64,000 nucleotides of DNA. Source: Rhodospirillaceae bacterium (lineage in GTDB: Bacteria; Pseudomonadota; Alphaproteobacteria; Rhodospirillales; Rhodospirillaceae). The stretch lies in the NCBI GenBank assembly GCA_002737725.1, contig NSIP01000011.1, forward strand, positions 1 to 64,000, read 5' to 3'. The position numbers and the translations under genes are program-made. Positions 51,934 through 52,345 of this stretch are shown piece by piece (position 1 is the stretch's first letter; every line of letters starts with the position of its first letter). The notes under the pieces were generated by a model, which was given only the letters and a program-made list of their open reading frames with translations, was not told the DNA's origin and did not search any database.

Positions 51934-52345
51934 ATTCCGGTCCCTCGGTTGTGCTTTTTCTTGTTTTTACCTTTGCAGCGCCCGGCCTCGGGGGCCCTCC
52001 GCAAGTGACCGACCCAACAGCTCGTTTTCGAGCAGGGCGTCGCCGCTTGCGAATGGTGTGCGTCCCCGAAACATGGAGCCGTTATGCTGAGCCCTCCCCA
52101 CCCCACTTATTGTTTTTAGGAGAGAAATCCCAGCAGTGTGGTTCCCAGTACGTGCGCGCCAACAACTCAGGTCAGCGTGGGTTCCGACTATTCAGACAAT
52201 AGAATCAAAGCGTTAGGGATGGGTTAAGAGCCAATGAATCACAGCGACTCGACCTACTATATGTAGAGTCCCGTGCGACTCGAGGACTCTATGAATAGAC
52301 CCCACAAAATAATTGCAGGGGCTGAGCATTTATTTTTTGTCAGGG
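51934..52345. other. Intergenic region between ccrM and rnhB
   Basis: 412 bases with no supported gene. It holds the ccrM leader and the GANTC cluster at 52202-52289. The cluster lies about 270-355 bp before the ccrM start codon, so a long leader or distal control site is implied. Confidence 0.5.
52202..52289. promoter_or_regulatory. Cluster of six GANTC methylation sites with a CtrA-like box
   Basis: GANTC at 52202, 52236, 52246, 52266, 52277 and 52285; about 0.3 would be expected by chance in 88 bp. TTAG-7-TTAA at 52213-52227 matches the CtrA consensus TTAA-N7-TTAA with one mismatch. In Caulobacter ccrM is activated by CtrA and repressed through GANTC methylation in its promoter. Confidence 0.65.

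Follow-up and report, generated by a model that had tools for sequence, protein, structure and literature searches.

Introduction

How cells restrict the GANTC adenine methyltransferase CcrM to a short phase of their cycle is a central question of bacterial epigenetics, and the answer comes mainly from Caulobacter, for which the original work on the ccrM promoter is said to be that of Stephens et al. in 1995. According to the accessible part of a modelling paper that cites the experiments, Caulobacter ccrM is activated by CtrA from the hemimethylated chromosome and shut down by methylation, and the accumulation of CcrM is said to lag behind ccrM transcription (PMC2217572). The CtrA motif is placed at -39 for Caulobacter ctrA P2 and one operon, and at -49 for podJ, in the available excerpt of another report (PMC4287350). 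The wide presence of GANTC at ccrM is an idea already in print: in the available portion of Adhikari et al. 2021, ccrM is a predicted core GcrA target, conserved in 13 alphaproteobacterial species and likely to be GcrA-regulated in many, and a loss is reported in Caulobacterales (freshwater genera) and Parvularculales (PMC7987155). Brilli et al. 2010 counted GANTC in promoters, and the excerpt at hand draws no conclusion on methylation control (PMC2877005); the GANTC counts in the accessible text of a 2021 paper are for the region upstream of ctrA, not of ccrM (PMC8116508). A ccrM promoter or leader like the one described below does not appear in the available parts of five further papers (PMC3667746, PMC3973325, PMC9836097, PMC3708114, PMC8959179). 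Our literature search, which is weak evidence in that subscription papers lay mostly outside its scope, found no description of the GANTC spacing, of a GANTC-abutted -10 or of a leader RNA, nor any paper showing that two GANTC sites suffice at Caulobacter ccrM, as a preliminary description of the present locus had held.

Results

GANTC sites between rnhB and ccrM

We analyzed a 64,000-nucleotide stretch of the genome of a Rhodospirillaceae bacterium, hereafter the window. It carries ccrM (50812-51933, minus strand; 373 aa; PF01555 (N6_N4_Mtase), E 2.7e-66; PF18755 RAMA, E 6.7e-16) and, upstream of it, rnhB for ribonuclease HII (52346-52969, minus strand; PF01351, E 9.7e-47). The genome also encodes gcrA, recognized by a PF07750 match, and a CtrA-like protein of 66% identity to a C. 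crescentus CtrA query sequence. Between rnhB and ccrM, at 52202-52289, GANTC starts at 52202, 52236, 52246, 52266, 52277 and 52285; the six sites in 88 bp of the preliminary description are thus all present, and their starts lie 273 to 356 bp ahead of the ccrM ATG. The cluster is far above expectation, as had been claimed, but the expected count given earlier, about 0.3 per 88 bp, was too high: the genome sample, consisting of the 64-kb window plus 20 stretches, holds 996 GANTC in 463,520 bp, or 0.19 per 88 bp. When 160 sites were placed uniformly at random in 64 kb, six fell within 88 bp in 0 of 2000 runs, and at genome scale (6284 sites) one such cluster arose in 2 of 300 runs. The second-best 88 bp in the 463.5-kb sample contains four GANTC.

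That second densest run (L122, positions 74-161; G000 contig 9) lies just ahead of a reading frame of 248 aa and extends over its start; this frame, judged by eye, has the look of a PAP2-type membrane phosphatase. Across the whole window (1-64000) GANTC is depleted, with 160 sites against 242 +/- 15 in shuffles, suggesting selection against stray sites.

As no other part of the genome sample is locally as dense in GANTC, the run might be a replication- or nucleoid-related element, like the GATC clusters at oriC, and no promoter. We consider this very improbable, since the sites stand in register with -35- and -10-like elements and such clusters accompany ccrM in several orders.

GANTC upstream of ccrM in relatives

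The cluster is present in relatives of the organism as well. In four loci of its genus (L001-L004, window included) all six sites are kept, recurring within 1-3 bp relative to the -10 site. Beyond the genus, we assembled 130 ccrM upstream loci (30, window included, plus 80 plus 20) and used 126, dropping L054, L057, L074 and L145, which had less than 400 bp upstream. The sets of 30 and 20 were drawn from the best 30 matches only and the set of 80 comprises the best 80 of 548 relatives; the 126 loci are rich in Rhodobacterales and are neither independent nor evenly sampled. Within 400 bp upstream of ccrM they carry on average 4.19 GANTC, where seven palindromes of equal composition reach 0.62-1.63, and at least three GANTC in 105 of 126 loci (control palindromes, 2-25). 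Three sites fall within 60 bp in 91 loci (controls, 0-3), and a pair 9-14 bp apart occurs in 104, where the seven control palindromes give 0-5.

In other lineages than the window's, the sites often follow a fixed arrangement. TTGAC-N3-GANTC-N6-GANTC is exact in 52 of the 126 loci, and the same pattern built with control palindromes occurs in none of them; looser spacing raises the count to 56, with AT next in 45 of 55 readable matches, and a further 8 of the 126 have GANTC flanking TTGAC on both sides. From the arrangement, TTGAC would be the -35 of these promoters and the second GANTC would abut the -10. A strict pattern of a CtrA box plus two GANTC is found in 11 of the 126, and 52, including the window's locus, match neither any TTGAC/GANTC pattern nor this strict one.

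Tandem pairs of GANTC, 13 bp apart and, after TTGAC, 11 bp apart, stand upstream of ccrM in L081 (Micavibrio sp.), L083, L094, L066 and L052, as if both promoter types had been kept. Another locus, L100, has a GANTC-rich upstream region and a ccrM 68% identical to the window's; it comes from a record named Mycobacterium sp. KBS0706, a name that looks wrong.

Caulobacter vibrioides DSM 9893 (L056) has TTAA-N7-CTAA at -106 and GANTC at -144, -133, -60 and -53 from the matched start. With four sites there, and several sites being the rule in the examined set, the earlier hint that the dense cluster is a special version of the circuit in this organism finds no support. The cluster is neither due to chance nor peculiar to the window's genome. 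Judging from these loci, ccrM is commonly preceded, in the lineages sampled, by several GANTC that keep register with core-promoter elements.

A predicted CtrA-type promoter framed by GANTC

The predicted promoter, hereafter promoter P2, was delineated on the ccrM strand (minus, as for all features below) by sequence comparison. Its putative -10 is TATTGT (52196-52201), directly abutted by the GANTC at 52202-52206, and beyond the -10 lies a degenerate site, GAATA (52189-52193). In three same-genus relatives the -10 reads TATTAT and the degenerate site is GAATC, a GANTC; the window's promoter P2 has lost this second GANTC by the change from GAATC to GAATA. The TTAG-N7-TTAA that had been noticed among the sites is indeed found at 52213-52227. 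It is TTAA-N7-CTAA when read along the ccrM strand, with a single mismatch to TTAA-N7-TTAA, and it starts 26 bp before the predicted -10, a spacing as for a CtrA-type promoter that fits the CtrA motif at -39 given in the available part of PMC4287350. The designation of this box as CtrA-like is therefore supported as far as its position goes, upstream of a TATNAT-like -10. Farther upstream come two GANTC (52236 and 52246; 52236-52250) and then the run of three (52266, 52277 and 52285), which is followed by TACATATAGTAGG (52253-52289).

This organization can be traced through the window's lineage, a set of 31 loci (L001-L011, L013, L135-L144, L146-L154). The core, TTGATTC followed by a TATNAT-like hexamer, is found in 30 of the 31 by a pattern that allows mismatches and was written from the same sequences on which it was counted. 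Among these 30, a relaxed CtrA-like box starts 18-22 bp before the core in 22 and is absent from 8, and in 21 a group of three GANTC, with no more than 24 bp between the first and the last start, lies farther upstream; GANTC at the places of 52236 and 52246 is limited to L001-L004. The run stands 62 (12 loci), 61 (1), 56 (1), 52 (5) or 51 bp (2) before the core in 21 of the 31 loci, which were hand-picked for a run-ending GANTC 51-62 bp before the core, so that the range is set by the choice itself and the number of independent events involved may be small; as a hint of helical phasing of the run, these distances would be suggestive only.

In L009, L010, L148, L150 and L152, a GACTC followed by CCCACATGTGGG or a near variant, partly palindromic, lies 74-78 bp before the promoter P2 core, and ACATNT follows the last upstream GACTC in many other loci of the lineage. 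The CCCACATGTGGG-type element might act as an additional operator or be a -10.

In the window, GANTC is present within or near the predicted core promoter, as it is in promoters of the GcrA/CcrM type. The extended GcrA motif YGAKTCK, taken from the available portion of PMC7987155, fits 3 of the 6 sites, and B. subvibrioides is reported there to have no such preference. A sigma-70 scan of 51800-53100 returned no promoter.

A candidate structured leader RNA between predicted promoter and gene

Conserved blocks lie between the promoter P2 core and ccrM in several genera, and in the window they extend between the -10 and the start codon, predicting a long 5' leader (51934-52195). An N-terminal extension of CcrM through this leader was considered and rejected: the frame is closed by stops at -36 and -39 in L001 and L003, and a stop is also present in the leader frame of the window.

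A covariance model, R1, was built from 16 leaders outside the window's genus, trimmed at one end 15 bp past the start of the core and at the other at the conserved GGGNCGCA; the 5' end of the RNA model is thus our own cut. Its structure is the consensus of the 16-leader alignment minus three pairs judged spurious. In the window R1 matches a conserved structured RNA of about 137 nt with hairpins P1, P2 and P3 (52059-52195; E 4.2e-7), the sole match in the genome at E <= 0.01 in a search that scored 44 of 732 first-look candidates. Within it lie hairpin P1b (52157-52177), a G-rich block around the 3' arm of hairpin P2 (52092-52106) in which GGTGGGGAGGG is invariant in 16 leaders, and the conserved TTTCGGGGACGC, which is the 3' arm of hairpin P3 (52060-52071).

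Six loci (L010, L013, L148, L150, L152 and L154) have a short leader of about 110 nt with no R1 match at E <= 0.001. Close to their likely start codon they carry TTTCGGGGATGC or a near variant, which resembles TTTCGGGGACGC of the window's long leader.

When 24 sequences were aligned, 90.4% of the cells pair, compared with 47-60% in slid controls, and 11 of 28 pairs are changed on both sides (28 cells), a number reached by 0 of 500 shuffles; this alignment was fitted to R1 and hence leans towards the model. In the 16-sequence source alignment, 7 pairs (reached by 62 of 500 shuffles) and 15 cells (0 of 500) are changed on both sides, in shuffle tests that, here as above, leave the relatedness among the sequences in place. 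The best-supported helix is P1b, which is 100% paired in the 24 sequences; both sides have changed in 6 of its 8 pairs. Pairing reaches 77% in the helix above hairpin P2, and hairpins P2 and P3 show no both-side changes in the 24 sequences. Pair 4 of P1b is U-G in 24 of 24 and would be A-C on the opposite strand; therefore the RNA lies on the ccrM strand. Outside R1, an outer stem, P1a, was assessed by swapping its arms among the 24 sequences: true partners give a mean duplex energy of -17.3, against -10.8 after swapping, and 0 of 10000 permutations were as low as the true pairing. In 12 of 24 sequences the true partner took first rank; for the window it came 14th. Since P1a does not align, a first consensus fold of 21 plainly aligned leaders retained no more than 15 pairs. 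Conserved structure with compensatory changes is thus observed, within the limits of the alignment and shuffle tests.

The window's own copy is a weak example, among the weaker ones. Its leader folds no better than shuffled sequences (z -0.86; whole intergenic region, -1.50), where L136 and L151 reach -3.3 and -3.6 and L142 weakly -1.65, and R1 scores in the window's genus are low, 31-38 bits against a best of 121. A known RNA family was rejected, as an Rfam search of the leader gave no match; one sub-threshold match fell elsewhere in L136 (E 0.69).

Genome searches show how narrowly the RNA is distributed. At E <= 0.001, R1 matches 27 of 317 genomes of the order, once in each and in 5 of 115 genera, and across the class 1 of 385 genomes drawn, which is the window's own; the filters in both runs were strict, so that weak matches are lost. 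By coordinates, 25 of the 27 matches are directly upstream of ccrM and on its strand. Of the other two, that in G087 follows rnhB at a contig edge and that in G001 (E 2e-4), adjoining neither ccrM nor rnhB, is probably due to chance. At E <= 0.01 the family yielded five extra weak matches (G003, G072, G083, G084, G090), none adjoining ccrM. The five genera with R1 amount to 30 genomes in the set examined, among which G001, G036, G076 and G080 have no match beside ccrM or rnhB; in these four, ccrM is found only as a fragment without its start or gives no match.

It could be thought that the GANTC-rich promoter alone is regulatory and that the leader is just a long 5' UTR of the usual kind, or a relic of one that was structured in the past. 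The unremarkable fold of the window's leader, the low R1 scores of its genus and the absence of an Rfam match in the leader agree with such a view, which is nonetheless unlikely given the pairs changed on both sides, the G-rich block invariant in 16 leaders and the occurrence of R1 once per genome beside ccrM in five genera, with G087 and G001 as the exceptions.

The predicted promoter and the RNA occur together

The promoter and the RNA keep a nearly fixed distance. From the promoter P2 core to P1b there are 29-35 bp in 23 loci, and the remaining one, L138, has no core by the pattern. Anchored on P1b, GANTC is present in the 35 bp covering the core in 24 of 24 RNA loci (controls, 0-6), and at least three GANTC are found in the 90 bp before this stretch in 22 of 24 (controls, 0). 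Anchored on the R1 start the count is also 24 of 24, partly by construction, as 16 of the 24 starts were cut relative to a GANTC-containing core. The short and nearly fixed distance between core and P1b makes it likely that transcription starts just before hairpin P1.

A fixed short distance after the promoter core would also suit an independent, trans-acting small RNA with the cluster as its own promoter, ccrM being expressed by read-through or from another start, and in L136 and L151 a strong GC hairpin folds after hairpin P3. We regard this as quite improbable: within 51800-53100 the ccrM strand showed no terminator-like site, so that an intrinsic terminator in the leader was rejected, and 25 of the 27 R1 matches stand directly before ccrM. 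If the RNA is instead part of the ccrM transcript, as we prefer to think, the unusual distance between cluster and gene has a simple explanation, because promoter and start codon would then be kept apart by a long leader that holds a conserved RNA. The distance of 270-355 bp noted earlier was measured nearly correctly (273-356 bp), and a remote site would not be needed to account for it.

Discussion

Our analysis indicates that the cluster is probably the control region of ccrM, in which the predicted CtrA-type promoter P2 and an array of GANTC sites would be combined with a structured leader RNA that may add further control. The proposal that ccrM is governed here through GANTC and CtrA is favored by the conserved sites, by the GANTC clusters before ccrM in most of the 126 loci and by the gcrA and CtrA-like genes of the same genome; which proteins bind and in which direction methylation acts we infer from these features.

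The following scheme may be considered. Transcription would most likely start about 7 nt after the -10 at 52196-52201, from a promoter that CtrA would activate, with the TTAA-N7-CTAA box as its -35 region and a GANTC adjoining its -10. The GANTC run 62-81 bp upstream of the core would most likely serve as a GcrA docking array or mark a second, methylation-dependent start, and the methylation state of the sites could be read by GcrA or RNA polymerase. CcrM made from promoter P2 would methylate the GANTC sites of its own promoter, and the passage of the replication fork, leaving the sites hemimethylated, would reset it. The transcript would carry the structured RNA of about 137 nt near its 5' end, inside a leader of about 260 nt, and this RNA would most likely add a second, RNA-level control of CcrM synthesis; control at the level of translation is favored because no terminator-like site was found on the ccrM strand. 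The leader RNA is in this sense a concrete candidate for control of CcrM after transcription. That a lineage-specific RNA leader and a promoter with its -10 framed by CcrM's own sites together form a two-layer feedback on CcrM, by DNA methylation and by RNA, is a more tentative idea, to which we give a little less than an even chance.

How does the locus compare with known systems? Like leader RNAs and riboswitches of Rfam, the window's RNA is structured, covaries and lies directly upstream of one gene family; it differs in having no Rfam match. The GANTC inside or beside the predicted core recalls the methylated sigma-70 promoters that depend on GcrA, from which the window differs in combining a site array with a CtrA-like box, the role of GcrA here being a predicted one. 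There is also a likeness to the Caulobacter ccrM promoter, where a CtrA-like box and GANTC stand upstream of ccrM too. In the window, however, a GANTC abuts the predicted -10, the box is preceded by more sites, and a predicted leader of about 260 nt with a structured RNA follows, whereas an R1 search of the C. vibrioides DSM 9893 locus gave no match. The DNA part of the region is thus close to known biology, and the leader RNA is the candidate new and more surprising part.
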